This document shows, in pieces, positions 30,574 through 50,656 of a DNA stretch of 64,000 bases. Under the pieces are notes generated by a model, which saw only the letters and a program-made list of their open reading frames with translations, was not told where the DNA came from and did not search any database. How positions within the stretch are numbered: the stretch's first letter is position 1; every line of letters starts with the position of its first letter. The position numbers were made by a program, and so were the translations under genes. Location of the stretch: NCBI RefSeq assembly GCF_000365425.1, contig NZ_AQOV01000001.1, positions 620,001 through 684,000 on the forward strand, written 5' to 3'. The stretch is from Methylomonas sp. MK1. Lineage in GTDB: Bacteria > Pseudomonadota > Gammaproteobacteria > Methylococcales > Methylomonadaceae.

Positions 30574-30586
30574 GATTAGCCGTTTA

Positions 30587-30997: not shown

Positions 30998-31027
30998 GAG
31001 CGGTGTATCCTCTGTGTTTTTTAAACG

Positions 31028-31080: not shown

Positions 31081-31262
31081 ATTCAAGCCCAACGCGGCGG
31101 AGGCATGCGGCTCGAAGCTGGGACTGTATCCGCCATGCAATGCGATGGTTTTCGGGGACTCAATCATAGTGTGCAATCCTTCGGCTGGGGGAAATCAGGC
31201 TCGCAAGGGCCAAGCGGCGCAGACTTACACAGGGCGGCAGATAGAACCGTTTGAAGCGATTA

Positions 31263-31751: not shown

Positions 31752-31767
31752 TGGAAACTCTAAACGA

Positions 31768-32880: not shown

Positions 32881-32944
32881 ATCAACGAACGGAAGATTGG
32901 ATGGTGCGGGCGTTGCGGACAATTTCCGAACTGGTTTCCGGGCT

Positions 32945-33550: not shown

Positions 33551-33662
33551 AGGCGCTCTGTTTTGGCAATTAGTAAGAGGCGCTTCAGTTTGTGCCCACC
33601 GGCGGACTATCCGCCGCGCGGCACGTATCCGGCTGCCAATCAGCGTAAAAGATTAATCTGCT

Positions 33663-33818
33663 TTAAGCGGACGGTCGTTTGATCAAGAGCCGAATCCAAA
33701 ACCACGTCTCGAAGGTTGCTCCAACGATGAAGGCGGTGTTACCAACACCGGAATAGCCGGCCAGATAACACGCCACGGCTACCGCTAAAATCATTACGGT
33801 TATGATGTGATGCTTCAT
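33663..33818 (-). CDS. 51-residue membrane protein
   Basis: ATG at 33818 with AGGAGAG about 8 nt upstream. The product begins MKHHIITVMILAVAVACYLA, a single membrane helix, and ends with an aromatic stretch FETWFWIRLLIKR. TAA at 33663. It sits in line with the island genes (29 nt after PAP2). Similar small proteins occur in other gammaproteobacteria, but the role is unknown. Confidence 0.65.
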   Translation of the reverse strand: MKHHIITVMILAVAVACYLAGYSGVGNTAFIVGATFETWFWIRLLIKRPSA

Positions 33819-33847
33819 ATCTGCACTCTCCTATATCTACAGTACTT

Positions 33848-34433
33848 TCATCTTAGCCAGTTCATAACGGCCTTAGTGGCAAGCAAGCCGCCGGCTATTC
33901 CACATACATACCCAGCCAACACATCAGGAAAAAAGTGGGCTCCCACATTGATTCGCGACAAGCCTACCCATAGCGCCATAACAGCCAACAAAAACCGATC
34001 GCGAATTTTTAATAACGGCCAAAACATCGTCATGATCAGCATCGCAAACGCCGAATGGCCACTGGGAAAACTGTGTCTTGATTCCGGCAAAGCCAAAACG
34101 GTAACACGACCTGGGCAGCACGGCACTAGGTCTTGGCATGTCGAAACCGATCTTCAACAGCGCCACAATTCCCGCTGTCACCATATAACCGAGCATTAAA
34201 CGCATTAGCAGCTGTTTCATGCCTTGCAGCGATGGGAGCCGCTCCGTATTAACCGGAAACAGTTGCCGTAACGCGATCGCAAGGAGTATTGCACCAAGTA
34301 TCCAAGGTATATTTCTGAAGTCGCCGACCGCAGTACCGGTCAACATCAGCGCATCAATCAAAGGCCCATGCCAGCTATTAACGGCGTAAAAAATTTCCTG
34401 GTTCATGCCGAACCAATCATACAGAGCATTCAT
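33848..34433 (-). pseudogene. PAP2-family membrane phosphatase, frameshifted near 34118
   Basis: The first frame (start 34433) gives membrane helices and FDMPRPSAVLP, the KxxxxxxRP end. The remaining catalytic motifs, SFPSGHSAF and SRINVGAHFFPDVLAG, are in the next frame to 33848. Removing one C of CCC at GTGCTGCCCAGGTCG restores VLPGRVTVLALPE. Joined, it is about 195 aa and would dephosphorylate a lipid or polyprenyl phosphate. The indel may be a sequencing error. Confidence 0.85.
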
Positions 34434-34436
34434 GGT

Positions 34437-34910
34437 TTATTCGCTTAATGTTTCAATGGCCGGGATCGGCAAATGGTAAACATAAAACTGTTCGTCGCGC
34501 GTCCAACCGGTTGTTCGATAGAGTGCCTGAGCCTCGGTGTTGATTGCCGCCGTCGACAAAGTCAGGCGAACAGCGCCCAAGGCGGCCGCATATTCGACTG
34601 CCGCAGCCATGAGCCTGACTGCAATGCCTTGTCTACGAAATCCGGGATCGACGAATAGATCGTTGAGAATGTAGGCTCGAGCCAGCGAGACGGACGAAAA
34701 GCTGGGGTAAAGCTGAACAAAGCCGGTGGCTCTATTGTCTTGCTCGGCCAGGAACAATACCGATTCGCCGTGTTCGGATCGATCCCGCAAAAACGATTTC
34801 GCCGCATTCTGATCGCTGGGTTTACCGTAAAACCGGCGGTAACCGTCGAATAACGGAACGAGTGCATCCAGGTCGGACAGCGTGCCTTGACGAACGGCAA
34901 ATGGCTTCAT
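34437..34910 (-). CDS. GNAT-family acetyltransferase
   Basis: 157 aa from MKPFAVRQGTLSDLDALVPL; an ATG 15 nt upstream is possible. YILNDLFVDPGFRRQGIAVRL is the acetyl-CoA motif, and LYRTTGWTRDEQFYVY the C-terminus. It stops 3 nt before the PAP2 start. Substrate unknown. Confidence 0.88.
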   Translation of the reverse strand: MKPFAVRQGTLSDLDALVPLFDGYRRFYGKPSDQNAAKSFLRDRSEHGESVLFLAEQDNRATGFVQLYPSFSSVSLARAYILNDLFVDPGFRRQGIAVRLMAAAVEYAAALGAVRLTLSTAAINTEAQALYRTTGWTRDEQFYVYHLPIPAIETLSE

Positions 34911-34934
34911 GACGGCTTCCTTCAATGGTTGTAC

Positions 34935-35567
34935 TCAGGGTTTGGCTGCATCAGCGACCATGTTTGCCATGGCCGGCTGTACTGATTCGCGCAAAGCCTT
35001 GATCACGCTATTTTGGTTTTCCGGCGGCTGGTTTTGGCTGACTTTCCACTTGCCTTGCAGCCGCGTCACGCTGATTTCGATGCCGACAATCTGTGCTATC
35101 AAGCGTTCGGTAAAATCAGCCGGGGCGTCCGATACAGACCAGGACTCGGGGAAACCGGCTTCGAATTCCGCCGTCATAGCCTCCAATTGCCGGCGAATCC
35201 AGGCTGGATCATCGATAATCTTTAGCGTGCCGTAAGCATGCACGGCGGCATAATTCCAGGTAGGCACCACCTTGCCGGTTTGGGGTTTGGTCACATACCA
35301 GGATGGCGAAATATAGGCATTTTCCGCTTGAAACACCGCCAGCACATCCGTCTGTTGACCGAAATCTGTCCATAGCGGATTCGATCGGGCAACATGGCCG
35401 CGCAAGCTGCCGTAAGGTGAACCGCCCTCCTCCGCCCAATGCAGCGGAATGTGGTTGGCGTTGAGGCCGTCGGCTGATAAGTTAACCAGCGTCGCCAGCG
35501 GATAATCGCGTATCAATGTCTGCATGACATCGATTCTGGGTTCGTCGAAATGCTTAGGGATATACAT
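34935..35567 (-). CDS. PaiB-type FMN-binding protein
   Basis: 210 aa. MYIPKHFDEPR, NLSADGLNANHIPLHW, SPSWYVTKPQTGKVVPTWNYAAVHAYG and RLQGKWKVSQNQP are family hallmarks. It is a split-barrel flavin protein annotated as a negative regulator of sporulation and protease genes in Bacillus. In proteobacteria it often neighbours a GNAT gene, as here and in the paiAB pair. Confidence 0.92.
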   Translation of the reverse strand: MYIPKHFDEPRIDVMQTLIRDYPLATLVNLSADGLNANHIPLHWAEEGGSPYGSLRGHVARSNPLWTDFGQQTDVLAVFQAENAYISPSWYVTKPQTGKVVPTWNYAAVHAYGTLKIIDDPAWIRRQLEAMTAEFEAGFPESWSVSDAPADFTERLIAQIVGIEISVTRLQGKWKVSQNQPPENQNSVIKALRESVQPAMANMVADAAKP

Positions 35568-35607
35568 GAGTGCTTGCTGGATGCTTACTGTTTAAGTGTT
35601 GATGCCG

Positions 35608-35997
35608 CTAGACATTGATTTTGTAATTCAAGCTCACTTCGTCGCCGTGCATACCGCGGAATCCCCAATTGCAGGCCGGGCTTTCAACAATGCAAATTTC
35701 GATGTCCTGGTGAGCAATACCGATCTGTTCCTGAATGCGATCGAACAGAAAGCGGATGAGCTTTTTCTTGGTAGCCGTTTCCCGTCCCGTGATCATGCTG
35801 ATTTCGATAATCGTATAAGCGTCGGTTCTGCCGCTGGGTGCGAAAAAATCCTCCTTTTCCATCGGAAAAAAGCGATGGGCTCTTTTATCCACCGGAAAAT
35901 GCAACGCGTCGACGACGCAGTCATGAATCACGTCGGACAGTTGCCGCTTGATGGGATTGAGATGATCTTTGATGCCGTATATTTTGATTTGTGCCAT
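35608..35997 (-). CDS. Tautomerase-family protein
   Basis: 129 aa. MAQIKIYGIKDHLNPIKRQ, HRFFPMEKEDFFAPSGR and NWGFRGMHGDEVSLNYKINV fit the Tautomerase_2 family. The N-terminal catalytic Pro of the 4-OT group is absent (Ala at residue 2), so activity may differ. A copy of its 3' end persists at 31028-31080. Confidence 0.82.
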   Translation of the reverse strand: MAQIKIYGIKDHLNPIKRQLSDVIHDCVVDALHFPVDKRAHRFFPMEKEDFFAPSGRTDAYTIIEISMITGRETATKKKLIRFLFDRIQEQIGIAHQDIEICIVESPACNWGFRGMHGDEVSLNYKINV

Positions 35998-36037
35998 TTT
36001 GATGATAACCGTTGATATGTTGGACTTTAGTATTACG

Positions 36038-36328
36038 TTACAAACATCCATCTACTAAAACGAGTTTACTGGTGGTCGCTTGATGGCGTAATGAAAAAAG
36101 CGTTTGTGCTTCGGGGTCTTGAAGAAAGCCGTTAGCTTGTTCTCGTGATGGAAACTCGATGACAACAACTCTTTCAGGCCTCCAATCACCCTCTATAACG
36201 GTAGGTGGTTCGCCCCGGACCACGTACCTTCCGGAATGTTTTTCTATCAATGCCGGTATTTTCGAGATGTATTCTCGGAATCGATCAAAATCATGAATCG
36301 TTAGATCCAAAATGAGATAGGCATTCAT
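36038..36328 (-). CDS. DUF1330-family protein
   Basis: 96 aa: MNAYLILDLTIHDFDRFREY, GEPPTVIEGDWRPERVVVIEFPS and EAQTLFSLRHQATTSKLVLVDG. This is the dimeric alpha/beta-barrel DUF1330 family, function unknown. ATG overlaps the amidotransferase-like gene stop by 4 nt. Confidence 0.88.
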   Translation of the reverse strand: MNAYLILDLTIHDFDRFREYISKIPALIEKHSGRYVVRGEPPTVIEGDWRPERVVVIEFPSREQANGFLQDPEAQTLFSLRHQATTSKLVLVDGCL

Positions 36329-37014
36329 AGGTTTGCCACGGCCCTTAAAAAAGCCGAAACCAAAGGATGCGGTTGTTGCGGCGTGGATCGGGCTTGCGGC
36401 ACAAACAAAGTGCCGATGAAAAACGGATGCCCCGGCCACTCGATCACCCGAATCTCGCCTTCGGCTTCGGCGCCGCTGATTTGCATGGGACCTTGTTTCA
36501 GCGCATCGACATAGTCCGGGTTGATACCGAAATTACAGTAATACTGCTCGGTAGCCGTCATTGCAGCGTAAATGGCTGCCACGCGCGAATTGGGCTCGAA
36601 GCTTAGTTGCATCTCACGCCCGGCCAGCGAACAAGCCAGCTGCGAGATAAATAAATTCGAGGCATACGGATCGTATTCGGCATGCTGCGCGTCTTTAAAG
36701 CCCAGTACATTACGGGCATATTCGATAATCATGTGCTGAAAGCCGCCGCAGGTACCGAAGCAGGGAATGTTGTTTTCTCTGGCATCGCGAATCGCAGCCA
36801 ATGTCTTGTCCATGTCTTTGTACGGGCTGCCGGGGGCGATCCAGATGCCGGCGTAACGTTCGAACAACGCATGATCGATGTCGGCGGTCGAAATCCAGTC
36901 GGCATTGACCTTTAACTCCAATTTTGCCTTGGCATGTTCGATGGCGGTGTTGGTGGACAGATGCGGCGGAAAAGTCGGGGTGTATTCTCCGAGTAATGCG
37001 ATTGATACGGTCAT
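36325..37014 (-). CDS. Class I glutamine amidotransferase-like protein (CTP synthase C-domain relative)
   Basis: 229 aa. The nucleophile motif is CFGTCGGFQHMIIEYARNVLG, as in the amidotransferase half of CTP synthase. IRVIEWPGHPFFIGTLFVPQ carries the His of the triad region. There is no synthase domain. AAGGAGG precedes the ATG. Stand-alone relatives are of unknown function. It is translationally coupled to DUF1330. Confidence 0.85.
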   Translation of the reverse strand: MTVSIALLGEYTPTFPPHLSTNTAIEHAKAKLELKVNADWISTADIDHALFERYAGIWIAPGSPYKDMDKTLAAIRDARENNIPCFGTCGGFQHMIIEYARNVLGFKDAQHAEYDPYASNLFISQLACSLAGREMQLSFEPNSRVAAIYAAMTATEQYYCNFGINPDYVDALKQGPMQISGAEAEGEIRVIEWPGHPFFIGTLFVPQARSTPQQPHPLVSAFLRAVANL

Positions 37015-37033
37015 GAATGGGTAACCTCCTTGT

Positions 37034-37858
37034 TTAACTTAACGTTTTGATCGACATACATATCGTCGGCGCGGCTCGATACAGGCAGGAATAATGGGAA
37101 AGTCCGTCCAGTACCGTGATGTTCGAACAGCCGCGCAACGCCGATGCAAAATAATCCGCCATGGCAACTGGCGACCAGTCGTCTTCGGCGCCGTGCCAAA
37201 TATGAGTATCGACGCTGATATCGGCCAGCGTCGCTTTCCAGGGCTGCACGTAGGCGATGATGTCGCGAGCATAGCGTAGCGAATCGCGCTTGAAACAGGT
37301 TTTGAGCGTTCGGATCATAGTGGTCCGAAACACCTGATCGGCCACCAACGCTTGGTCTTTGGTGGCCGCGCTGGAAAATAACATTCGCAACAACAGGCCG
37401 GGAAACCTACTCGCCAGCCATCCTTGCACACTAGCCAACCATTGAAATGCCGACGGGTGATTTTGAGCCAGCCGGAAAACGGCTTTTCCCGCCGCCGCGT
37501 CGATGAAGTTGCCGGCATCCAGCGGCGCAGCCGCGGAAACCAAATGCAGGCTGCGTACCTGACCGTTCATCGCGCGACAAACTTGCAAGGCAATGAAAGC
37601 GCCGATGGAGAAACCGATAAAATCGACGGGTTTATCGCCAACCTTCTTGGCAATCTCATCGGCTATGCATTGGTAATAAGCGCAGCCTTGCAACCGAGGG
37701 TCGATGGTCGAGCGATCATAACAAATGATGTTCAGATGATGTTGTTTGCCATGAAGGTCAAAAATTTCGCATTCGTCAGGCGAACCCGGCGTACCGTGGA
37801 AATAGATCACCGGCTGGCCGTCGGCGGCGCCGAATTGGCTAAATTCTAACGATGGCAT
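37034..37858 (-). CDS. Alpha/beta-hydrolase
   Basis: 274 aa from the ATG at 37858. VIYFHGTPGSPDECEIFD is the oxyanion region, FIGFSIGAFIALQVC the nucleophile elbow (GFSIG), and DDWSPVAMADY the late acid region. The catalytic His is in LDGLSHYSC. It is soluble. The start overlaps the amidase stop by 13 nt. Confidence 0.85.
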   Translation of the reverse strand: MPSLEFSQFGAADGQPVIYFHGTPGSPDECEIFDLHGKQHHLNIICYDRSTIDPRLQGCAYYQCIADEIAKKVGDKPVDFIGFSIGAFIALQVCRAMNGQVRSLHLVSAAAPLDAGNFIDAAAGKAVFRLAQNHPSAFQWLASVQGWLASRFPGLLLRMLFSSAATKDQALVADQVFRTTMIRTLKTCFKRDSLRYARDIIAYVQPWKATLADISVDTHIWHGAEDDWSPVAMADYFASALRGCSNITVLDGLSHYSCLYRAAPTICMSIKTLS

Positions 37859-39342
37859 AACGGCGGCACCCTGTGTTTCCAAGACTCGGCTTGTTCGAGC
37901 TGGGCGGCCAGTTGGAACAGTAGCCGGTCGTTACCTGTTGCGGCCATGAACTGCACGCCATGCGGCAAGCCGTCGTCGCTCCAATACAGCGGCAGCGACA
38001 TGGCCGGTTGGCCGGTGATATTGGCAAGCTGGGTGAACGGCGTTTGCTGCACGGCTTTGGTGATGATCGCATCCAGCAAGCAGTTGGAGAATAGTTTGTC
38101 GGCCAATCCGCTCGCTAGCAATCCGCGCATCAGCCATTGTTCCAAAACATTGGGATCGAGCGCATCGGACGCCAATGGTGGCGTGGCGACCGTCGGCGTC
38201 AGGATCACATCGTAATGGCGATGAAAATCCGCCAAGCGCCTGGCAATCCGCTGCCAGACTGCCAGCGCCTGATGTAGCTGTTCGTCGCTCACGCCTTTGC
38301 CGATGCCGGCCATCAGCCGGGTATTCAACTCGATGGCCAGTTGAGGCTCGGTCAAGTCCAGCCACTGCACCATGTTGGCGACATCCCGCGTGGTATAGTA
38401 AAAAACCACTGTCAGAAAGGCGCGCATCAATTCGCGACCGTCGAAATTCCAGGCCGCATCCTCCACATCGTGGCCGAGCGCTTCGCAGTGTTTGGCGGCT
38501 TTGGTTGCGGCAGAAAGACAGTCGCGGTGTATCAATGTCTCGACAGGCGCCTGGTTGATCAGCGCGATTTTCAGCCGTTGCGGTGGCTGCGTGGTGGCAT
38601 ATAGATAAGACTGGGACGGCGGCTTGGTCGCAGAGTACACCTGATCGGTATTGCCGGCCACCCAATCCAGATAGGCGGCGCTGTCGCGTACACTGATCGT
38701 GCAGACATGGCTGACCACCGCCCCACCCCAAGCCTTCGATAAATCTTCGAAGCGATTCAAGCCTCGGGACGGCTTGAAACCGAAGATGCCGCAATAAGAA
38801 GCCGGCAATCTGATTGAACCACCGCCGTCGCTGGCATAGGCCATCGTCACGATGCGGGCCGTTACGGCTGCGGCGCTGCCGCCGCTGGAGCCTCCGGAGT
38901 TAAGGCGTAAATCCCAGGGGTTGCGGGTGCTACCGAACACGGCGTTGTTGGCCAGCGCCGATGCGCCGAGCTCGGAGGTGTTGGTCTTGCCGAAGGTAAT
39001 CAAACCGGCGGCATTGAGCCGGGCGGCCATCTCGCTGTCGGCGGCGGGACAATAATCCTTCATCGCCAGGCTGCCGTTCGACATCGGGACACCTGCGAAA
39101 CGCAGCATCAGGTCCTTGACCAGAAACGGCACACCGGTAAACGGTCCACGCTTGCCCAGGTTTTTCACCAGCGATTCCGCCCGTTCGTTCATCGGCGTGA
39201 CCACGGCATTCAGTAACGGATTGAACTCAGCCAATCGCGCCTGAGCGGCCTTCAGTAATTCGCCAGCCGAAACATCGCCGGCTTGCACCAGCTGTGCCAA
39301 GCCTAGCGCATCGTATTGCGGATATTCGCTGAATGGATTCAT
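37846..39342 (-). CDS. Amidase-signature family enzyme
   Basis: 498 aa. The catalytic lysine lies in GVPFLVKDLMLRFAG. The glycine/serine-rich signature SGGSSGGSAAAVTARIVTMA is followed by DGGGSIRLPASYCGIFGFKP, which bears the nucleophile serine. Amide substrate unknown. It overlaps the LspA gene (ATGA) and the next hydrolase gene, so the three are translated together. Confidence 0.93.
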   Translation of the reverse strand: MNPFSEYPQYDALGLAQLVQAGDVSAGELLKAAQARLAEFNPLLNAVVTPMNERAESLVKNLGKRGPFTGVPFLVKDLMLRFAGVPMSNGSLAMKDYCPAADSEMAARLNAAGLITFGKTNTSELGASALANNAVFGSTRNPWDLRLNSGGSSGGSAAAVTARIVTMAYASDGGGSIRLPASYCGIFGFKPSRGLNRFEDLSKAWGGAVVSHVCTISVRDSAAYLDWVAGNTDQVYSATKPPSQSYLYATTQPPQRLKIALINQAPVETLIHRDCLSAATKAAKHCEALGHDVEDAAWNFDGRELMRAFLTVVFYYTTRDVANMVQWLDLTEPQLAIELNTRLMAGIGKGVSDEQLHQALAVWQRIARRLADFHRHYDVILTPTVATPPLASDALDPNVLEQWLMRGLLASGLADKLFSNCLLDAIITKAVQQTPFTQLANITGQPAMSLPLYWSDDGLPHGVQFMAATGNDRLLFQLAAQLEQAESWKHRVPPLCHR

Positions 39343-39882: not shown

Positions 39883-40296
39883 TTATTGACTAGGTGCGGC
39901 TTCCGCTGACTGAGGCAGATGGTCGGCGATTGCAAACCACGGCGCTTTTGAGCCGACCATGACATGGCGCATCGGTTTACAGCCTGGGTCACCATTTACC
40001 GTACCCAATGCTAACCCAAAAGCATCTGGAAACGCCTGATCTGCAATGTACTGCAAGGTAGAACCGCACACCATGCAAAATGTTCGCCTGACATCAGGGG
40101 ATGAGCAATACTCTCCCAGTAGGTCACTCCCGTGAATCCATCGAAAATCTCGATATTCTACGTATGCCCAAGTGGCAAATGCCGCCCCTGTTGCTTTTCG
40201 GCACATAGTGCAGTGGCAATTGCGGGCAAACCGCAGCGGGTTCGCTATTTCATATTGGACGGCACCGCATAGGCAACTGCCTGTTAATTTACTCAT
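39883..40296 (-). CDS. GFA-family zinc protein
   Basis: 137 aa: TGSCLCGAVQYEIANP, CHCTMCRKATGAAF and RTFCMVCGSTLQYIAD give the zinc-binding cysteines of the Gfa family. It starts 6 nt after the methyltransferase stop. A paralogue is at 30587-30997. Confidence 0.9.
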   Translation of the reverse strand: MSKLTGSCLCGAVQYEIANPLRFARNCHCTMCRKATGAAFATWAYVEYRDFRWIHGSDLLGEYCSSPDVRRTFCMVCGSTLQYIADQAFPDAFGLALGTVNGDPGCKPMRHVMVGSKAPWFAIADHLPQSAEAAPSQ

Positions 40297-40302: not shown

Positions 40303-41037
40303 TTACCTAGACACTGCCTTAATCGCTATTATGGTAGTCATTCGGTTGACGACTTCGTTAAACGCCATCCTCAAGCCACAGTCGGCAAGGATTTTCACAA
40401 CGTCGTTTGGTGAAATACGGACTTTATAATAGGAACTCACTTTTTGCTGCCAGCCGTTTTCCGTTTTAACCTGCAACAAATCCGTCACCCGCACCCTGTC
40501 TGCTTCATAGTCCAAACAGCACGTCAGAATTTTTGTGTCGTCACTTTTTACGGGGATGAAGCGCTGATCGCCCGAGAGTGCCGCTGAATAATCACGAAAA
40601 GATAGGATCAGTTTTCCGCCTTCGATTAATGATTCGCAGCAAGCGATAACCAATTGCCGAATGTCATCCAAACTTTCAAGATGTGTCAGGGTGTCTCCCC
40701 AGCAAATAATTAGCTCAGGTTGGGGATCAGCATATTTTTTTACCTGACGAATATCGTCATTAAAGCCGGTAACGGAAAGTCTCTGCGTATTGTCGAATAA
40801 TTCGGATAAAAGCTGTTGGTTAAAATCAATCGCTTTTACCGTATATCCCAATTTGGCCAAGGAAACACTTTGTATACCATGCCCTGCCCCCAGATCTAAG
40901 GCGATTGAAGTGCTATGTGGCGATAGGCCGCTGGCTACCAAAAATTGTTGATGTTCTTTTTGCCTGGCATCGAAGTCTCCAACCATCCATGCATAAATAT
41001 CGCCAAGATGCCGGTCGTAGTGTTCTTTTGCGGTCAT
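40303..41037 (-). CDS. Class I SAM-dependent methyltransferase
   Basis: 244 aa. Motif I is ALDLGAGHGIQSVSLAKLGY, with motif II VKAIDF and a later ELIICWGDTLTHLES. LILSFRDYSAALSGDQRFIP is distinctive for this subgroup. Small-molecule substrate unknown. It is preceded by one of the larger gaps of the island (115 nt), which may hold an internal promoter. Confidence 0.88.
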   Translation of the reverse strand: MTAKEHYDRHLGDIYAWMVGDFDARQKEHQQFLVASGLSPHSTSIALDLGAGHGIQSVSLAKLGYTVKAIDFNQQLLSELFDNTQRLSVTGFNDDIRQVKKYADPQPELIICWGDTLTHLESLDDIRQLVIACCESLIEGGKLILSFRDYSAALSGDQRFIPVKSDDTKILTCCLDYEADRVRVTDLLQVKTENGWQQKVSSYYKVRISPNDVVKILADCGLRMAFNEVVNRMTTIIAIKAVSR

Positions 41038-41152: not shown

Positions 41153-41782
41153 TTAGAGTTTTTTTCCAAAATAATGAATGGCATGGGTTTTTGCACCTGA
41201 AACGGTCGTGGCCTCAGCTACAAAATGGCTGATTTCATCAAATAGCGATAATTCTTCAACAATCTCTGTAGGAACAAAATGTTTCATTGCCACATTGAAA
41301 GATGCTGTGAATGTGCCTGATGAAGAATATTGGATGTTTTCCGACTGATGAAATTCGACGCAATAAATGATGCCACCGTAATTCAGCGAATCATATGCCG
41401 ATTCGATGATTTTCATGCGCTGTGCCTGAATGGGAATGCAGGTCAGTACGGCACAAAATAAAATGACATCGAGTTTTCCAATATCGACCGGTATTTCATG
41501 ACTATCTATGTAACGCAGGTCGAGCGTTGGATAGTGTTTTAAGCCACGCCTAATCATTTCGATTGACGTATCTACGCCTGTTAAACAGCCGTATCCTCTG
41601 GCGTGCAGCTCGCTCGTCACCCTGCCATAGCCGCAACCATAATCCAGGATTTTTGCATTCTTGCTAATTAGCGTTGCTAACCTATCCCAGTCCGGCTCAA
41701 GCGAAAATGAGATTTCACCGGCTATTTTGTTCCATGCATTTTGCTGGGTATCGACAGGCGCTACCGGGTTATTGGAATTCAC
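41153..41782 (-). CDS. Class I SAM-dependent methyltransferase
   Basis: 209 aa. KILDYGCGYGRVTSELHARGY is motif I, followed by GVDTSIEMIRRGLKHYP and LDVILFCAVLTCIP. Substrate unknown. It overlaps the hydrolase upstream by 4 nt. Confidence 0.88.
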   Translation of the reverse strand: MNSNNPVAPVDTQQNAWNKIAGEISFSLEPDWDRLATLISKNAKILDYGCGYGRVTSELHARGYGCLTGVDTSIEMIRRGLKHYPTLDLRYIDSHEIPVDIGKLDVILFCAVLTCIPIQAQRMKIIESAYDSLNYGGIIYCVEFHQSENIQYSSSGTFTASFNVAMKHFVPTEIVEELSLFDEISHFVAEATTVSGAKTHAIHYFGKKL

Positions 41783-42906
41783 TCGGCTTCCTTAGACGTA
41801 GCGTATGTGTTTAGTGATGCGGAGTTCGAGGCAGAATCGTTAGGACTTCGGAAAATGGGAGTATTTTGTACAGCACTCGGGGTAATAGTCTCGACCATTT
41901 GTAAAATCGTCTTCGCCACTTCGTGGGCATGACGATGATTGGTCATCAGGGATATATGATCGGCTTCTTCTATGGTTCGCAACGAGCTATACTTTGATGA
42001 ATCCAACCAATTACGTTGTTGTTTCTGATGCCAATGAATGAATTTTGCGGCGGTCTCCGCATCCAGCCCAGTAAATTGTCCTGCTACGATTACCGCTACC
42101 GGCAGATTACTTAGAGGTTTCAATGAACGAATTTGCTTCAATGTGTCCGGTAGAAAGCGGTATTCCCAAACGACAGTTTTAAGGTAATCGGTTTGGGACA
42201 GGAAGGCGTTGGCGGTCGCTTCCGTATCGGGGGGAAGTCCCGCGGCAAGATTGAAAAGTCCCAAACCGAGAACCGCGCGCATTGCCCCGACTGAAGCCAG
42301 ATAGGGAAATACCTGGACGGTGGGCGGCGTCCAGTCTTCGACCCTGGGCAAATCGATCTCGGCATAGGTTTCGAGTACCGACGGGTTGGTCGCATCGACC
42401 AGAACCAAGCCTGCCACATCCTGAGGGTAATTGGCGGCGAACATGCGCACATACGCACCGCCGATAGAGTGGCCAACAAGAATGTAGGGTCCGGGAATAT
42501 TCGCCGCGCTCAATAAGCGGTGGAGTTGCCGACTGGTGTTAACGGCATCCATGGGAAGATCGCTTGGCGCACTCCAACTGTATCCGGCTCTATCATAAGA
42601 GCAGACCTTCGCGCTTTTTGCCACTTCCGGCTGTATCCAGGCCCAAGCCAGTGAGGAAGCGCCTGCGCCGCCTTCGAGAATCACCGTCAATGGTCCTGAA
42701 CCCGTGCAATCAATATGAAATGGATGCCCGTCCACTTCGACCATCCGGCCAGGAGGAGGGTATTTTGCCAAGTCGGCCTTTACCGCGAAGTGTTGGTAAA
42801 TGGACCCGGTTAGTAGCAATGCGGTTAACAATACCAGCCCAGTCTTTATGGTACGTAACGTCCAGCGTCCAATGGTGCGCAATAGCGTAAGAATATTTGT
42901 TGCCAT
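41779..42906 (-). CDS. Membrane-anchored alpha/beta-hydrolase
   Basis: 375 aa. An N-terminal helix (TGLVLLTALLLTGSIYQHF) precedes KYPPPGRMVEVDGHPFHIDC, nucleophile LVGHSIGGAYVRMF, LVDATNPSVLE, and catalytic His in EEADHISLMTNH. It is a paralogue of 31768-32880 with the same PPPGRM linker. It starts directly after the peptidase stop. Confidence 0.88.
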   Translation of the reverse strand: MATNILTLLRTIGRWTLRTIKTGLVLLTALLLTGSIYQHFAVKADLAKYPPPGRMVEVDGHPFHIDCTGSGPLTVILEGGAGASSLAWAWIQPEVAKSAKVCSYDRAGYSWSAPSDLPMDAVNTSRQLHRLLSAANIPGPYILVGHSIGGAYVRMFAANYPQDVAGLVLVDATNPSVLETYAEIDLPRVEDWTPPTVQVFPYLASVGAMRAVLGLGLFNLAAGLPPDTEATANAFLSQTDYLKTVVWEYRFLPDTLKQIRSLKPLSNLPVAVIVAGQFTGLDAETAAKFIHWHQKQQRNWLDSSKYSSLRTIEEADHISLMTNHRHAHEVAKTILQMVETITPSAVQNTPIFRSPNDSASNSASLNTYATSKEAE

Positions 42907-43473
42907 TTAGAGCGCTCCAGCCAGCGATTCCTTGAGTGGGATATTGGTATTCAGCCTGTACCAGTCATTGAACCGCTGACGATAGGATTCGAAGGGCTCA
43001 TGCAGTTCCATACGCGGATCGTTACTAAGGGCGTAGGCCATGCCTTCGATCAGCCACTGCTCACCGGTTAGCAGCGCCAAGCTGCCAAAGCGGTCGGCCT
43101 GCCAATGATGGATGAGCTCATGCGCCACGTAGTGTTGTTGCCAAGCTCGCGGCGCAATGGCGATAGCGAAACTGCCCAAGGTGAATCCAGCCTTGTTCGA
43201 TAGGCCGAATGCAGACCGGCATTGCTCCGTGCTACAAAAGATAATCTTCGGCTCGCCGATAGACAAGCCCCATTGCGTTGAAAGATAACTTTTCGAGTCA
43301 TAGAGTAGTGATTCCGCCGCCGCCAGCCGAGAAAAATCGTCTACACATAGGTTTTGTTCGTTGCAACGGACGCCAAATGCTTCCGGAATCAACACCCGAA
43401 CCGGTTTGAAAAAAGCAAACGCAGAAATCGGCAACAGCAGGAAAATCACGACTAACCATCTACGGTATTTCAT
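42907..43473 (-). CDS. Putative gluzincin-type metallopeptidase, membrane/exported
   Basis: 188 aa. The N-terminal hydrophobic helix (WLVVIFLLLPISAFAFF) is a signal or anchor. The zinc motif HELIHHWQ is followed 20-25 residues later by GEQWLIEGMAYAL, which fits the second ligand region of gluzincins. Two cysteine pairs suggest a periplasmic location. Target unknown. Confidence 0.7.
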   Translation of the reverse strand: MKYRRWLVVIFLLLPISAFAFFKPVRVLIPEAFGVRCNEQNLCVDDFSRLAAAESLLYDSKSYLSTQWGLSIGEPKIIFCSTEQCRSAFGLSNKAGFTLGSFAIAIAPRAWQQHYVAHELIHHWQADRFGSLALLTGEQWLIEGMAYALSNDPRMELHEPFESYRQRFNDWYRLNTNIPLKESLAGAL

Positions 43474-43514: not shown

Positions 43515-43997
43515 TTAGCCATTTGTCGCTAAATTCTGCCTCATTTTCCGACCGCCAACCGGAAAAAGACCATTATGCTGATAAAAACTTAATGTCCGCT
43601 CAAATTCCGGGAGCGGCGGCGTGCATAACTCAATGCACGACCAACCGTGCTGTTGCCCATAAATTCTAATCTGCTCAATCAACAGAGCGCCGACCCCCGA
43701 ACAGCGAAATTCAGGAATAACGTAAAACTCTTGAATGACGCCTATTTTGCCGCCGGCATATAACGCATACGTTTCGGTGATGGTCGAAACAGCAACTGGG
43801 ATATTATCCGACCAGCCAACAATAGCCGCGTAGTGACCAGCGGATAACAAGGCTTCACAGCGCTGAACCGTACCTTCCAAATCAATATCGAAATGCTGCG
43901 CATGAGTACGCTCGCAGATTTCCTGAGTCAACTGGACAACCAGTGAACCAATAACTTCTGCGTGGTCTGGTGTTGCTTGTATAAACTCCAATTTCAT
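43515..43997 (-). CDS. GNAT-family acetyltransferase
   Basis: 160 aa from MKLEFIQATPDHAEVIG. IGVIQEFYVIPEFRCSGVGALLIEQI is the acetyl-CoA motif region, and YQHNGLFPVGGRKMRQNL the end. It starts 40 nt after the methyltransferase. Substrate unknown. Confidence 0.85.
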   Translation of the reverse strand: MKLEFIQATPDHAEVIGSLVVQLTQEICERTHAQHFDIDLEGTVQRCEALLSAGHYAAIVGWSDNIPVAVSTITETYALYAGGKIGVIQEFYVIPEFRCSGVGALLIEQIRIYGQQHGWSCIELCTPPLPEFERTLSFYQHNGLFPVGGRKMRQNLATNG

Positions 43998-44037
43998 TCG
44001 CGTACTCACATGCGACAGTTGCTTTAATCCAAGTTCG

Positions 44038-44721
44038 TTATTTAGGCTTGATGAGCAGCATTTGATTACCGCCGCGTTGAAATTCGTAATCAACCTTAAC
44101 GATCTGTACGTCAAAACCTCGGCTAGCCAATTCTTCGCTGACGAGGGAAAGATAAGGCGAAATTGATCCATCAAGCGCAAGCAGCGGAAATATCCGCACC
44201 TCCCGAGCTACGCGCAACATTTCCTGTAGTGCCTGAAGATGAAACTCTGCCGACAAGTGTGCGCTATACAAAAACAGAAAATGCGACGACAAGGCAATAT
44301 CGAATTGTCCGTTTGCAAAAGGCAGTGCTGGTAACTCTCCGGCTATGTATCGGCCTTCTTGCTTGCCCGATTCGAAATCGGCGAGGAAAGTGTCCATGGC
44401 CGACATGCGGATTTCTCCGAGCGCTTCTATTGATGGAATGACATACCATACGTAGTCGGTTTGGTTGTAACGCATTTGAGCCATGACAGTTTCATAGGTC
44501 TCCGCTATGCGGCTTTTAATCTGCTCGACATCAAAGATATAGACAGGATCAACAGAAACCACTGCACCGCCGCGTTTGGTCAGTTCAGCGTTAAACCCTG
44601 CAGGCCCGTCACCACAGCCCAGAATATGTCTGCCAAGATCGGCCTCGGTCAGACCAAACATGTCGACATATTCGGTGTATGAACGTCCCCAAGGTACGAC
44701 CTTGTCCAGTGTAAAAGCCAT
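44038..44721 (-). CDS. SAM-dependent methyltransferase-like protein
   Basis: 227 aa. ILGCGDGPAGFNAELTKRGG is a motif I variant, with SVDPVYIFDVEQIKSRI and LPFANGQFDIALSSHFLFLY after it. The same architecture is found in conserved proteins near stress genes. Substrate unknown. Confidence 0.82.
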   Translation of the reverse strand: MAFTLDKVVPWGRSYTEYVDMFGLTEADLGRHILGCGDGPAGFNAELTKRGGAVVSVDPVYIFDVEQIKSRIAETYETVMAQMRYNQTDYVWYVIPSIEALGEIRMSAMDTFLADFESGKQEGRYIAGELPALPFANGQFDIALSSHFLFLYSAHLSAEFHLQALQEMLRVAREVRIFPLLALDGSISPYLSLVSEELASRGFDVQIVKVDYEFQRGGNQMLLIKPK

Positions 44722-44757: not shown

Positions 44758-45159
44758 TTATTGCGCTTCTGAATGTTTGACAGCAAATCGCCCGATGCGG
44801 CCAAGATGGGTAAAGCCAAATCCCTCCGGGCATTTGAGTCCGTAACCCAGCGCCCGATCGAAGCCGATGTGGGCACACCAGATTAAACCGGCACATTGCA
44901 GTGCCGGAGACGGAACCGTAAAACCTATCACCAGGCTGGTAATGGCACCGATGTAGGAATGTGCGGTGTTATAGCTAATGGCGCCAACTTTGGCGCCGGC
45001 GAAATAACCAAGCAAAGATAGATCGGGCACCAGGAAGTAGATTGCGAAAGTACTCCAGTCCAGATCGAGTTTTGCGTAAGCGATACAGGCTGCAACTAGC
45101 ATGCAAAATCCCTCCAGCCGCAATAAAACACGAACGGCACCTGTTGTTTCACCTAGCAT
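44758..45159 (-). CDS. DUF4260-family membrane protein
   Basis: 133 aa with four hydrophobic segments; WSTFAIYFLVPDLSLLGYF and HIGFDRALGYGLK are hallmarks of DUF4260. Function unknown. GGAG precedes the ATG. It is the first gene downstream of the lux box at 45235-45250. Confidence 0.88.
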   Translation of the reverse strand: MLGETTGAVRVLLRLEGFCMLVAACIAYAKLDLDWSTFAIYFLVPDLSLLGYFAGAKVGAISYNTAHSYIGAITSLVIGFTVPSPALQCAGLIWCAHIGFDRALGYGLKCPEGFGFTHLGRIGRFAVKHSEAQ

Positions 45160-45234
45160 TTTGACTCCAGCAATTCCTGCATAGAAACTGATTGTTTTGG
45201 GTTAATTACAACTCAGGTTGATGTCTTGCAACAA

Positions 45235-45250
45235 CTGTCAGTGTTGACAG
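45235..45250 (-). promoter_or_regulatory. Lux-box-like operator 2
   Basis: CTGTCAGTGTTGACAG on the + strand obeys the CT-N12-AG rule for LuxR-type sites and is a near-perfect dyad (6-bp arms CTGTCA/TGACAG). Read on the minus strand it continues TTGTT exactly as at the first box. It ends 75 nt before the DUF4260 start. A TGTAAT about 24 nt downstream could serve as -10 element. Confidence 0.7.
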
Positions 45251-45359
45251 GGTATGGTTTGAAACTTGTAATTTCCGGCGCGCAGCCCGCTTATTATCCG
45301 GCTATAACTGCAATCCAGGATTTGCTATGTATCGACAAGCTCTCTTGGCATATTGCATC

Positions 45360-46181
45360 TCACTCGGCCCCCATGAATGCCAACATTAAATTCATTTGCG
45401 CAGCCAACATGGGAACGCCGGTGTGGATGACTTTCCCTTGTCCGGACGCTTCCTGGAGTAGCGGCGTCATTTCCGGTGCTATAACGCATTCGGCTACCAG
45501 ATCACAACGTCTTATCATCTGTTTGGCAATCGGCAGATCATCATTTGGTTTCATGCCGAGAGAAGTGCCGTTGATCGCGATGTCGTAGTGCGAAGTTGCC
45601 TGGATTGCTGTTGTTACCTCAACTTGAGGATAAACATCAGTGACTCGCTCCAACAGACCGCTGGCTCTTTCCGGTGTTCGATTCTGTATGCAGAGTGAAG
45701 CGCAGCCGTGTTTTGCAAGGGCAAAAGCAATAGCCGATGCCGCACCTCCGGCCCCGACCAGAAGGACGCGCGCACCTTTCACGCTGTATCCGGCTCCGGC
45801 TAATCCGGCAATAAAACCCTCACCGTCCAGCATGGTGCCGATGAGGCGGCCGTCTCGGTTTCGGCGAACCACATTCACGGCGCCGACCAGGCGTGCCTCC
45901 GGGGTAAGTTCATCGACTAAACGAGCAGTAACGACTTTGTGAGGCATGGAGACGACTGCGCCGCCAAAGTTGTTTAAAGTTCGCAGGCCTGCAAAAAATG
46001 ACAGGTAGCCTTCGGCAGACACGTGCATCGGCAACATAACGAACGAACCCAAAAGCCCGCTGTCTTGCAGTAATGCGTTTGCCATGGCGGGCGTTCTAGC
46101 CTGGCTGACGGGGTCGGCGATGACGCCAAGTATTTTGGTGTTCCCGGTAATCGAGGCAAGCATGTATTTTCGATTCTGCAT
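45360..46181 (-). CDS. Shikimate dehydrogenase-like oxidoreductase
   Basis: 273 aa, or 267 from a second ATG. AroE fold: the catalytic Lys in VVSMPHKVV, Asp in GTMLDGEGF, and NADP loop VLLVGAGGAASAIAFALA. The shikimate-binding serines of AroE (PVSHSLSP) are replaced (PVSQARTP), so the substrate is probably not shikimate. It is the last gene of the first lux-box operon. Confidence 0.85.
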   Translation of the reverse strand: MQNRKYMLASITGNTKILGVIADPVSQARTPAMANALLQDSGLLGSFVMLPMHVSAEGYLSFFAGLRTLNNFGGAVVSMPHKVVTARLVDELTPEARLVGAVNVVRRNRDGRLIGTMLDGEGFIAGLAGAGYSVKGARVLLVGAGGAASAIAFALAKHGCASLCIQNRTPERASGLLERVTDVYPQVEVTTAIQATSHYDIAINGTSLGMKPNDDLPIAKQMIRRCDLVAECVIAPEMTPLLQEASGQGKVIHTGVPMLAAQMNLMLAFMGAE

Positions 46182-46208
46182 AAAAGTGAGGCGTTGTCCC
46201 TTTGCATG

Positions 46209-46769
46209 TCATGTTGGATGATATTGATATACTCCATATTTCCAATAGCCGCCGCCCGGCTTTGAGGGACCAACCCAGTTTCTGGCTAACAACTCCTGGG
46301 CGATGAAGTAATTAACGAAACCATGTCCCACCAACAAGACACTTTTATGCTCACGCGCCATGTCTATTAATGTCGATGCGGCAACTTGCGCCCGCTTTTT
46401 TGCCATGTAGAGCGATTCGCCGTTTCGCGAGAATCCAATTACCGACAGACACCGCAACAGTATGCCCCAGGCTTCGACCGACATCGTCAATGTACCCTGT
46501 TTGAAATGAGGGATAGCAATTTCCCGAAATAGTGGATCGCTCAGTAAAATATCGCTAAATCCTAATGCCTTGGCCGACTCTAAAGAACGAGTAAAATCGC
46601 TACATACGGCAACATGGCATGCCGAAGCGCGCTGCTTGGCGGTTTCCGGCGGTTCGTCCGCTATACCGGATAAATCATAACGGCTGATAATCTCGCCTAT
46701 GTCCCGCGCTTTGGCTTTGCCTTTTAGCTCGACCGTGGGCTTACCGTGCCTGATTAATGTGATTTCCAT
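46209..46769 (-). CDS. Histidine phosphatase (phosphoglycerate-mutase-like)
   Basis: 186 aa from MEITLIRHGKPTVE. The RHG motif bears the phospho-accepting His, and LLVGHGFVNYFIAQEL the second His. A mid-region arginine (CSDFTRSLESA) completes the site. Substrate unknown. The ATG overlaps the GNAT stop by 1 nt (TGATG). Confidence 0.88.
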   Translation of the reverse strand: MEITLIRHGKPTVELKGKAKARDIGEIISRYDLSGIADEPPETAKQRASACHVAVCSDFTRSLESAKALGFSDILLSDPLFREIAIPHFKQGTLTMSVEAWGILLRCLSVIGFSRNGESLYMAKKRAQVAASTLIDMAREHKSVLLVGHGFVNYFIAQELLARNWVGPSKPGGGYWKYGVYQYHPT

Positions 46770-47302
46770 CACTGCACACTCATGCAAAACGAAGACAAAT
46801 TGACCAGCGGTTGTGGTACAGGATGAATTAGGTGTGCGGTCGCCAATTGCATGGGGACAAACGCCACGCCATTTTCTTCGATGCCAGGGCGTTGCGGCTG
46901 AAAGCCAAGCCGCGCATAAAACGGCACGGCGGGTAGAGAAGAATTAACCGTGAAGGTTTCCGACGGTTTTGCGGCCAACGATGATTTGATTGCTGTTAAC
47001 GCTAATGCCGTGCCGATGCCTTGGTATTGAAACGCGGGCGCCACGAACAGATGAAAAACATGCCGCGCGTCGCGGACGGCAACTACTCCGGCCAGCGTAT
47101 CGCCGAACAAACCCAGCAGATAAAGGAAATCGGCGTTGGTGATGTAACTGCCAATAGCTTGGGCGGAAATGCTCGAAAAAAACATCTCTGCGCCTTCGCC
47201 GCTTGGGTTAACCGTACAAAAACCGGCAACGCTGTGAATCAGCTGGCTGATTGCGTCGGCATCTGTCGGCACAGCGTGACGGATGATCAACGGCGAGTTC
47301 AT
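46769..47302 (-). CDS. GNAT-family acetyltransferase
   Basis: 177 aa. HVFHLFVAPAFQYQGIGTALAL is the acetyl-CoA motif; FYARLGFQPQRPGIEENGVAF is typical of the subgroup. It lies 22 nt after the reductase/transglutaminase gene and is coupled to the phosphatase gene. Substrate unknown. Confidence 0.88.
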   Translation of the reverse strand: MNSPLIIRHAVPTDADAISQLIHSVAGFCTVNPSGEGAEMFFSSISAQAIGSYITNADFLYLLGLFGDTLAGVVAVRDARHVFHLFVAPAFQYQGIGTALALTAIKSSLAAKPSETFTVNSSLPAVPFYARLGFQPQRPGIEENGVAFVPMQLATAHLIHPVPQPLVNLSSFCMSVQ

Positions 47303-47324
47303 GAATACGCGGTCGTTTCGACGT

Positions 47325-48419
47325 TCATTGGTTTGTAGCGATAAAGTCCGGCAAATTGTTGTAAACCTGTTCGACGGTTTGGTTCTCGGTTAAGGCTCTG
47401 ACGACTGCAGGCAAGGGTTCCGCCCGGATGCCGGGTAAATCTTGTTCCAAAGCATTTACAATCGGGAACGCCAATTTTTCCAGCGGCGGGCAAAAGTCCG
47501 CTTCCACACCGGGCTTATTGCCGCGCGCATCGATCCGGTACCAACCGTATTGCTGTAGATAAACCGCGTTCAAACCGTGCAAACAATAAGGGGGCTGGTC
47601 GCCGTCTATGGTCAACCGCTGATAACAAAGTCCGGCCGGAATATCGTTGGCGCGCAACAGCGCCGCCAGCAAATGGCTTTTGGCGTAACAGTAGCCGGTG
47701 CCGTGGATTAATACCTCGGAAGCTTTGCAGGTCACCGGATTCAGCCGATAGTCCCAACTATGCTTGATCTCGTCGCGGACAAATTCGAAACAGCGTTCGG
47801 CGATTTCTTCCTCGTCAGCGCAGCCGTCCGCCAACTTTGCGGCTTGCGCGACGATGGCGGGATGTTGGCTGTCGATATAAAGGCTACTGTTCAGGTATGG
47901 CTTCATCGCCGCGCGTTCGATTTCCACTAATACGCCGGTGAGTAAAGAGACTATTTCCGGCGTAGCCAGCAGGTCTGCTTCGCCGATGTTCGCGCTCGGC
48001 AACGGCAAGGTGATCGATGCCGCTTCGATCAGTGTTGCCGACATCGTGATCAAAGTTTCCCGGAGTGCGGAATCGGCATGATTGGCGCGTGGCGAAGCGT
48101 TCAATACCGCTACCGGTTTATCCGCAAAGCCCTCGAATGACACCAACCAATCCAGCGCATTTTTGATGGTGCCTGTAACGCCGTGGGCATATTCCGGACT
48201 GGCGATCAGCAAGGCATCCGCCGAGGCCACTTCGTTGCGTAATTTCGCCGCGACGGGCGGAGGCGCACTTTCCAAATCCGGATTGTATAAGGGGAGTTCG
48301 CCAAGCGAGGTAAACAAACAGACTTCGATTGAGGCCGGCGCCAACTGTCTTACGACCCGTAGCACGGCGGAATTGATGGACGCTGCCCGCAAGCTGCCGG
48401 ATAAAGCCAATATTCTCAT
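47325..48419 (-). CDS. NADPH-FMN reductase / transglutaminase-like fusion
   Basis: 364 aa in two domains. Residues 1 to about 175 are an NADPH-dependent FMN reductase (LALSGSLRAASINSAVLR; ASPEYAHGVTGTIKNALDW). Residues about 190-364 are a transglutaminase-like cysteine protease fold with Cys in HGTGYCYAKSHLLAALLR, His in YCLHGLNAVYL and Asp in WYRIDARGN. The combination is unusual, and I infer a redox-linked peptide or amide reaction at most. It starts 7 nt after the GNAT gene in the lux-box operon. Confidence 0.88.
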   Translation of the reverse strand: MRILALSGSLRAASINSAVLRVVRQLAPASIEVCLFTSLGELPLYNPDLESAPPPVAAKLRNEVASADALLIASPEYAHGVTGTIKNALDWLVSFEGFADKPVAVLNASPRANHADSALRETLITMSATLIEAASITLPLPSANIGEADLLATPEIVSLLTGVLVEIERAAMKPYLNSSLYIDSQHPAIVAQAAKLADGCADEEEIAERCFEFVRDEIKHSWDYRLNPVTCKASEVLIHGTGYCYAKSHLLAALLRANDIPAGLCYQRLTIDGDQPPYCLHGLNAVYLQQYGWYRIDARGNKPGVEADFCPPLEKLAFPIVNALEQDLPGIRAEPLPAVVRALTENQTVEQVYNNLPDFIATNQ

Positions 48420-48426
48420 TCCGAAT

Positions 48427-48858
48427 CTAGGTGTTGAATGTTAGGGAAATGTGGTGGCTGCTCAGTTGCAAACCCTTGTTAAGATACAATCGATGCGCAT
48501 GATGGCGCTGATAGCCGGAATCCAAATGCACGCCCAGACAGCCGTGCGCTTGCGCATGTTCGATCAGCCAATCGAGCAAGGCGCCGGCAAAACCTTGTGT
48601 AGTCTCGCCGCTGAGCGTGGCTAAATCGTCGATATACAGTATTTTGCCCCAGGCCAGAAACTCGGCGAAACGGAAACCCGCCACGCTTTTAACGACGCCT
48701 TGTTGTCTAACAGCCAGAATTTGGTAGGACTGCGCTTGCTGGCGGCGAACCTGGGCCAGAAACCGGTCCTGCTCGAGATGCGGGCGCAGCTCGCTAAACA
48801 CCGGAAAACAGGCTTGAATTTCGGCGTCGGTATCGGCAATGAAAATATCGAGAGTCAT
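48427..48858 (-). CDS. GNAT-family acetyltransferase
   Basis: 143 aa. ILYIDDLATLSGETTQGFAGALLDWLI and HLDSGYQRHHAHRLYLNKGL match the GNAT at 11037-11483. It is the first gene after the lux box at 48973-48988 and diverges from luxR. It is not a LuxI: the conserved LuxI Arg/Phe/Trp/Asp/Glu pattern is not seen. Confidence 0.85.
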   Translation of the reverse strand: MTLDIFIADTDAEIQACFPVFSELRPHLEQDRFLAQVRRQQAQSYQILAVRQQGVVKSVAGFRFAEFLAWGKILYIDDLATLSGETTQGFAGALLDWLIEHAQAHGCLGVHLDSGYQRHHAHRLYLNKGLQLSSHHISLTFNT

Positions 48859-48972
48859 GGCTACGGCTTAACAATCAAAAAGGTGGCTGTTGGCTTAAAA
48901 ACAAAATACAAGGCATAGCTGAAACCTATACCAGCTTTGCTAGATTAGACGCTATTTACAACCGCCTAACAA

Positions 48973-48988
48973 CTGTCAATATTGACAG
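48973..48988. promoter_or_regulatory. Lux-box operator 1 in the luxR divergent promoter
   Basis: CTGTCAATATTGACAG is a perfect 16-nt palindrome that satisfies CT-N12-AG. It lies 93 nt before luxR and 114 nt before the divergent GNAT. The minus-strand extension CTGTCA-N4-TGACAGTTGTT is identical in the second box at 45235-45250. Confidence 0.78.
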
Positions 48989-49081
48989 CTTATATTGCTG
49001 GTAAAGCTTCAGGACATATAGAGTTTCGGTATGTTCACCATTTAGGATAAGCTTTCGAACAGTACTAACGACGGTAGGCCC

Positions 49082-49792
49082 ATGAAAGCTTGGCAAGAAA
49101 TTCAACTTCAAGCGTTACAAACTAGCGATAGTGAACATCAGCTTTTTCAAACCATTGTTTCGTTGGCTGCGGAGTTGGGTTTTGACTACTGTGCCTACGG
49201 ACTCAGGTTGGCGCTGCCGCTGAGCAATCCGAAGATCGTGAAAAAGAGTAATTATCCAACGGCTTGGCAAGCGCAATATCAGACAAAAAACTATTGTGCG
49301 ATCGATCCCACCGTCAAACACGCTCTGCGTTCGCCTCTGCCTATCCTGTGGACGGACGGTTTGTTCGCTTCGACGGCGGCGTTTTGGGAGGAAGCGCGTT
49401 CGTTCGGATTGCGTTATGGTTGGGCGCAATCCATGCGGGATGTCCCTGGCGCAACCGGCATGCTCTCTTTAGCGCGATCCGATGAGCCGCTTAGCGAAAC
49501 CGAGCTTACGGCCAAGGCTTTCAAAATGGCTTGGTTGACCCAAAATGCGCATATTGCCTTGTCGCGCAGCGTGTTACCCAAATTGCTGCCGGAAGCGGAT
49601 ACCAAATTATCGAACCGCGAGGTTGCAGTACTACGCTGGACTGCCGATGGCAAGACTTCCGGCGAAATAGCCAGCATCATGAAAATAACAGAGCGGACCG
49701 TTAATTTTCATATTAGCAATGCCGCGACGAAATTAAATGCGGCCAACAAAACCTCGGCAGCCGTCAAAGCGGCGATGCTCGGTTTTTTATAA
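49082..49792 (+). CDS. LuxR-family acyl-homoserine-lactone receptor (solo)
   Basis: 236 aa, the quorum-sensing LuxR length. In the autoinducer domain the ligand-contact residues are kept: Trp and Tyr in TAWQAQYQ, Asp-Pro in CAIDPTVKHA, Trp in PILWTDG, and the downstream Gly. The GerE HTH is LSNREVAVLRWTADGKTSGE with ERTVNFHISNAATKLNA. No luxI is present in the window, so it is a solo here. It is divergent from the minus-strand island and carries a lux box in its promoter. Confidence 0.93.
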   Translation: MKAWQEIQLQALQTSDSEHQLFQTIVSLAAELGFDYCAYGLRLALPLSNPKIVKKSNYPTAWQAQYQTKNYCAIDPTVKHALRSPLPILWTDGLFASTAAFWEEARSFGLRYGWAQSMRDVPGATGMLSLARSDEPLSETELTAKAFKMAWLTQNAHIALSRSVLPKLLPEADTKLSNREVAVLRWTADGKTSGEIASIMKITERTVNFHISNAATKLNAANKTSAAVKAAMLGFL

Positions 49793-50643: not shown

Positions 50644-50656
50644 GTAAATAAGCCAG

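Follow-up and report, generated by a model that had tools for sequence, protein, structure and literature searches.

The LuxR solo and the two lux boxes

A luxR gene without a luxI gene nearby and two putative lux boxes stand beside a long minus-strand series of small enzyme genes in Methylomonas sp. MK1 (assembly GCF_000365425.1, contig NZ_AQOV01000001.1, forward strand 620,001-684,000; this stretch of 64,000 nucleotides is referred to below as the window, and positions are counted from its first base; Table 1). The genome comprises 5,233,591 bases in 5 contigs and is 99.99% complete. The LuxR open reading frame (ORF) is open, contains the Autoind_bind (1.9e-38) and GerE domains of Pfam, and is the only Autoind_bind gene in the whole genome. 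Its pocket residues W, Y, D, P and W, the counterparts of which have roles in the binding of acyl-homoserine lactones (AHLs), align with those of QscR and RhlR, in full agreement with the earlier note on this DNA, which described a full-length, AHL-type LuxR with conserved ligand residues.

The protein is 91% identical to the LuxR of Methylomonas sp. LW13 and 87-94% identical to those of other Methylomonas-type loci. In a quickly built tree of 85 LuxR sequences, ten Methylomonas-type solos form one clade (SH-aLRT 99) that is nested in a clade of 16 (SH-aLRT 97) together with four Methylobacter sequences from loci without luxI and two luxI-bearing ones, from M. tundripaludum SV96 and a metagenome-assembled genome of Methylococcales. 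On sequence grounds, the MK1 LuxR is an orthologue of MmsR, which we take the LW13 protein to be. The best Protein Data Bank matches to the MK1 LuxR sequence include QscR, RhlR variants and SdiA; QscR and SdiA are solo AHL receptors that, to our knowledge, are not known to head a variable, co-oriented enzyme island. According to a 2023 review (PMC10134790), MmsR of LW13 is a class B LuxR solo that adjoins an FMN reductase gene, is encoded by several Methylomonas species, and answers the homoserine lactones (HSLs) 3-OH-C10-, 3-OH-C8- and 3-OH-C12-HSL as exogenous AHLs. The regulator is thus already known, being an orthologue of a published solo, and the novelty suggested in the earlier note has to be corrected to this extent; the primary paper on MmsR may also describe part of the two-box layout. 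LW13 and MK1 share the orthologous LuxR, the FMN reductase neighbour (on the evidence of the review) and the same two boxes; they differ in that the FMN reductase fusion of LW13 is in two frames and its AroE-like gene is mostly missing, whereas both are open in MK1, and in that the ligand response, reported in that review for LW13, is only predicted for MK1.

The two dyads proposed in the earlier note lie at the positions given there, with no mismatches; they obey the CT-N12-AG rule of lux boxes, each at a putative promoter, and both are followed by TTGTT. We interpret the dyads as lux boxes, that is, putative LuxR operators. The whole genome contains only two exact CTGTCA-N4-TGACAG sites, both in the window, compared to a chance expectation of 0.31 for 12 fixed bases and no exact site for the backwards control; thus, the dyad is not common elsewhere in the genome. 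There are 7 further sites with one mismatch (9 in total versus 3 for the backwards control), of which six are located inside mechanically called ORFs of at least 80 amino acids (aa) and the seventh overlaps an ORF start. Because the sites with up to three mismatches show no excess in the window (16 versus 17.8 expected), only the exact sites carry weight. When the box is extended by TTGTT, the two window sites are the only ones in the genome without a mismatch, the next best site having 2; at 3 mismatches the counts do not exceed those of the control (3 and 6 versus 5 and 8).

The TTGTT extension is present at both boxes in the orientation that the earlier note gave, but it probably belongs to the -35 hexamer of a promoter rather than to the LuxR operator. 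TCTAAT occupies exactly positions 40-45 counted from the start of box 1, and at box 2, TGTAAT is located one base further. With a transcription start 6-8 bases after the -10 hexamer, the midpoint of the box would fall at about -44, not far from the class II site in the position rule for LuxR-type activators. The TTGTT region in some strains resembles the integron core site motif GTTRRRY; a role as part of such a site was considered and dropped, given that further strains do not conserve the motif and that a -35 hexamer fits better.

Lux boxes before luxI and across Methylomonas

The earlier note reported no luxI in the vicinity of the LuxR gene, and a search of the whole MK1 genome with the LuxI model (PF00765) found none; no control genome gave a match, and AinS and HdtS were not searched for. 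Among 201 genomes of the wider family, the same model detected strong luxI genes in 4 (E 8.4e-24 or better) and a fragment in a fifth. The cut-off was passed by 55 of the 201 genomes, mostly with weak matches in frames of approximately 240-280 aa, which presumably represent other acyltransferases.

Of the 88 family loci inspected, 46 contain a luxI match. A box that deviates from the dyad at no more than two bases was found at 38 of them (17 without, 13 with one and 8 with two mismatches), between 260 bases before and 30 bases after the luxI start, mostly 45-82 bases before it; the 46 loci are partly redundant, with at least two pairs (L027/L101 and L028/L103) being one place fetched twice. 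In the consensus of these loci, two T follow the box immediately (74% and 87%), and positions 40, 43, 44 and 45, counted from its first base, are T, A, A and T (74, 66, 95 and 58%, respectively); the box part of this consensus is partly fixed by selection, the flanks are not. The consensus has the same promoter spacing as the window boxes, which supports their interpretation as lux boxes. This correspondence between the two window promoters and those of luxI genes in relatives appears, from the alignments, to be the newly seen element.

The locus resembles the MbaR/MbaI system of M. tundripaludum: SV96 encodes a LuxR, presumably MbaR, that is 69% identical to the MK1 protein, and an exact box followed by TTGTT precedes its luxI. 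The SV96 luxI, however, is located about 3 kb from the LuxR gene, with a gene of the DUF4902 type (which we take to be RsaM-like) between them, whereas in MK1 no luxI was found and enzyme operons follow the boxes. In the two stretches examined beside the LuxR gene of SV96 (part of L141), LuxR itself is the only homologue of the query proteins. In luxI-bearing relatives (L122, L123 and L124), luxR and luxI are separated by a gene for a small protein, which in L122 matches DUF4902; near the Methylomonas solos, no homologue was seen. In Massilia, two loci without a luxI match (L078 and L082) carry an exact box right after luxR and before apparent ABC transporter genes, with TCTAAT near the place of the -10 hexamer, which suggests similar promoter use outside methanotrophs.

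Within the genus, the box and the LuxR gene tend to occur together. Among 37 Methylomonas genomes, 17 have an Autoind_bind gene over the cut-off, and all 17 contain the exact box (30 sites), versus 2 of the 20 LuxR-free genomes, with one site each (Fisher p 1.2e-8 for the co-occurrence, a value that ignores relatedness). One of these two sites lies inside a 569-aa ORF (G189) and the other (G216) has near-identical flanks. The LuxR is of the MmsR type in 15 of the 17 genomes (87-100% where identity is given), the others being a 62% identical protein with an adjoining luxI (G177) and a 35% identical one (G171); two of the MmsR genomes, G210 and G212, were matched to loci L045 and L043 by contig and box position, and in G211 the LuxR is represented by matching fragments only. 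Box 1 is present in all 15 MmsR genomes, in 11 of them exactly, and box 2 is exact in all 13 in which the DUF4260 gene is in reach, 75-76 bp from that gene.

The genes behind the boxes show a similar distribution. Thirteen of the 15 MmsR genomes carry the AroE-like gene with at least 77% identity; of the other two, LW13 (G210) has short remnants and G211, which is 78% complete, has none. None of the 22 other genomes has it at that level, all having matches of 24-32% only. DUF4260 at 84% or more is found in 13 of the 15 (with a stop inside the gene in G117) and in a single genome without MmsR, G061; three more genomes have relatives at 43-45%. G061 lacks both an Autoind_bind gene and an exact box, with one single-mismatch site about 5 kb away in the stretch that was fetched. 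What it retains is an island remnant in which a thioesterase coding sequence occupies the expected place of box 2 and its promoter, and only truncated or broken versions of the FMN reductase, methyltransferase and GNAT genes are left. G201 has a third box before a second DUF4260 gene, some 628 kb from LuxR; on sequence inspection, the ORFs behind this box resemble island genes and those before it resemble transposase genes. Taken together, the co-occurrence of LuxR and box, the conservation of both boxes and the presence of the same box before luxI in relatives strongly support the proposal of the earlier note that one LuxR controls both promoters; as far as sequence comparison can tell, such control is very likely.

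The enzyme island

The island consists of small enzyme genes that run in one direction and vary between strains (Table 1). Pfam confirms the genes named in the earlier note (30 window proteins, a subset of the ORFs, were scanned), and the operons are inferred from gene spacing and strand. The genes farthest from the boxes are possible members of the LuxR regulon, and GC content gives no clear island border. In other strains, mechanically called ORFs between the conserved anchors encode cupin, thioesterase, CYTH, LysE, HAD, FMN-binding and PNPOx proteins. A separate aroE homologue is located at C1:2.79 Mb of the MK1 genome. After the amidase gene there is an lspA (signal peptidase II) homologue (39342-39838) that matches a 166-aa protein of G094 (L133) in two frames.

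Table 1. Features of the LuxR locus and the enzyme island in the window
Feature	Position	Strand	Remarks
luxR solo, MmsR orthologue (by sequence)	49082..49792	+	Pfam Autoind_bind and GerE; 91% to LW13; tree
Putative lux box 1, CTGTCAATATTGACAG	48973..48988	-	Exact dyad; kept in 15/15 MmsR genomes
Putative -35 hexamer TTGTTA, box-1 promoter	48967..48972	-	Directly after box 1; 17-base spacer
Putative -10 hexamer TCTAAT, box-1 promoter	48944..48949	-	From alignment; not listed by generic scan
GNAT acetyltransferase (GNAT1), first gene of operon 1	48427..48858	-	PF00583
NADPH-dependent FMN reductase fused to transglutaminase-like domain	47325..48419	-	PF03358 and PF01841
GNAT acetyltransferase (GNAT2)	46769..47302	-	PF13673
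Histidine phosphatase	46209..46769	-	PF00300; start chosen, 46787 in the ORF list
AroE-like shikimate dehydrogenase paralogue, last gene of operon 1	45360..46181	-	PF08501/PF01488
Putative lux box 2, CTGTCAACACTGACAG	45235..45250	-	Exact dyad; exact in 13/13 MmsR genomes with DUF4260 in reach
Putative -35 hexamer TTGTTG, box-2 promoter	45229..45234	-	After box 2; 18-base spacer
Putative -10 hexamer TGTAAT, box-2 promoter	45205..45210	-	From alignment; not listed by generic scan
DUF4260 protein, first gene of operon 2	44758..45159	-	PF14079
SAM methyltransferase-like protein	44038..44721	-	PF08241, weak
GNAT acetyltransferase	43515..44000	-	PF00583 on longer listed ORF; start chosen, relatives align over full length
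Protein without Pfam match, conserved in islands	42907..43473	-	
Alpha/beta hydrolase	41779..42906	-	
SAM methyltransferase	41153..41782	-	
SAM methyltransferase	40303..41037	-	
GFA (glutathione-dependent formaldehyde-activating family) protein	39883..40296	-	
Further genes: GST, GFA, hydrolases, DUF6624, GNAT, FMN_bind_2, tautomerase, GATase, amidase, one without Pfam match	29459..39342	-	

The MK1 genome contains a second copy of the EamA-GNAT1-FMN reductase fusion-GNAT2 block near C1:368 kb, and the block is also present in a LuxR-free genome (G205). The two copies of the FMN reductase fusion are 88% identical; window 46828-61457 and C1:367.6-375.4 kb (L216) have in common the shared block and a 4.6 kb neighbour that is 93% identical. 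In the second copy, EamA and GNAT1 are contiguous, whereas in the window they are separated by 2.4 kb (48901-51303) that contain box 1, LuxR, MAPEG and HxlR genes. The second copy has no Autoind_bind gene, and no box with up to three mismatches was found in stretch 11501-15700 of L216. Either the LuxR module entered in front of an operon that was already there, or the second copy lost it. Elsewhere in the window, an EamA gene (5951-6871) shows about 89% DNA identity to the second-copy EamA over 960 bases.

Islands of this kind also occur in Methylobacter, with gene order and content that differ from those in Methylomonas. At four Methylobacter loci without a luxI match nearby (L050, L051, L052 and L054), the box, exact in two and with one mismatch in the other two, is followed by TTGTT and precedes a divergent, strongly co-oriented series of small genes; PF00765 has no match in three of these genomes and a weak one in the fourth (G136). 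Mechanical calling of ORFs gave minus:plus ratios of 14:1, 24:3, 12:1 and 13:2 in L148, L143, L050 and L051, respectively, LuxR being among the plus-strand ORFs in L050 and L051. The 62 minus-strand ORFs scanned out of 63 (one in L143 was left out) include 7 GFA, 7 GNAT, 5 GST, 3 EamA, 3 Methyltransf_11, 3 GATase and 3 SnoaL_2 proteins.

Proposed regulation and alternative explanations

We propose that the MmsR-orthologue solo would bind both lux boxes, each abutting the -35 hexamer of a predicted sigma-70 promoter, an arrangement that suggests a class-II type activator. The box-1 promoter would drive the operon from GNAT1 to the AroE-like gene and the box-2 promoter the DUF4260-led operon. 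As the genome search detected no luxI, the input is probably an AHL released by neighbours such as Methylobacter; the output would be a strain-variable set of transporters and of enzymes that modify small molecules, with detoxification, self-protection or competition as its most likely role. The boxes, the promoter geometry, their conservation and the co-occurrence with LuxR are directly apparent from the sequences; binding, activation and enzyme function are inferred. As a whole, we consider this model probable. The search detected no LuxI-type synthase, so the cell more likely listens to its neighbours than monitors its own density, and the quorum control assumed in the earlier note has to be reworded accordingly, MmsR being listed as a receptor for exogenous AHLs in the review.

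Several observations weigh against this model. Box 1 has one mismatch in 4 of the 15 MmsR genomes, and 8 of the 46 luxI loci lack a box with at most two mismatches. A generic promoter scan found 13 promoter-like sites, versus 13.6 expected, and omitted the two proposed promoters, because its rule requires an A at the second place of the -10 hexamer, where both have another base. The generic scan for terminators listed 22 sites, versus 16.7 expected, which does not fix the operon ends or read-through. The AHL-triggered protective arsenal, in turn, is suggested only by family names and variability.

The most serious alternative, although we hold it to be rather unlikely, retains the same regulation and views the island as a biosynthetic cluster for a secreted or signalling metabolite instead of detoxification. 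The AroE-like dehydrogenase, methyltransferases, acetyltransferases, amidase and GATase might assemble or modify a product, and the quorum-sensing island of Methylobacter, with its mbaI and tundrenone genes, makes tundrenone, as described in PMC6977074. However, no nonribosomal peptide synthetase, polyketide synthase or other core enzyme was detected among the 30 window proteins scanned, and the content of the island varies between strains, unlike that of a single pathway.

It is improbable that LuxR does not act on box 2 and the genes that follow, the dyad being a relic or the site of another regulator, such as might be suspected from the nearby HxlR regulator gene and from the purely sequence-based case for this box: its exact conservation at a fixed distance from the DUF4260 gene, the further copy before the second DUF4260 gene in G201 and its loss from the island remnant of LuxR-free G061 all speak for a LuxR site. 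The two remaining alternatives we regard as very improbable. Both dyads are also among the listed terminator-like stem-loops, but an origin as structural repeats (terminator hairpins or ends of mobile elements) was rejected in view of their rarity in the genome, which holds no other exact copy, their fixed promoter positions in relatives, including placement before luxI in most luxI loci, and their conservation. An integron cassette array could explain the variable content as a reshuffling of small genes, and integron integrases pass the cut-off in 6 of 10 related genomes; this origin was judged unlikely given that MK1 (G000) has no integron integrase over the cut-off, that a crude home-made scan of unproven power (it gave 2-4 sites in no more than 3 of 10 integrase stretches, and shuffled sequences gave 0-3) found no attC-like sites in the window island or the four Methylobacter loci, that 43 island and neighbour proteins gave two weak matches near integrases, and that the island genes overlap or abut.

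What merits further attention is the layout with two promoters, its agreement with luxI promoters and the occurrence of a reshuffled island in two genera. Tentatively, and with less confidence than we place in the regulatory model, we suggest that in two genera of methanotrophs a luxI-type promoter together with LuxR became the head of a gene-collecting, reshuffled, co-directional island of small detoxifying or modifying enzymes, switched on by AHLs of other species, and that box-led operons can be copied to distant sites with the box kept. The locus offers a concrete regulon for an interspecies signal in methane-oxidising communities, with two promoters, one receptor and a defined candidate signal. 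If the enzymes indeed form a protective arsenal, a lost quorum-sensing circuit would have become a listening post that controls fast-changing protective enzymes.

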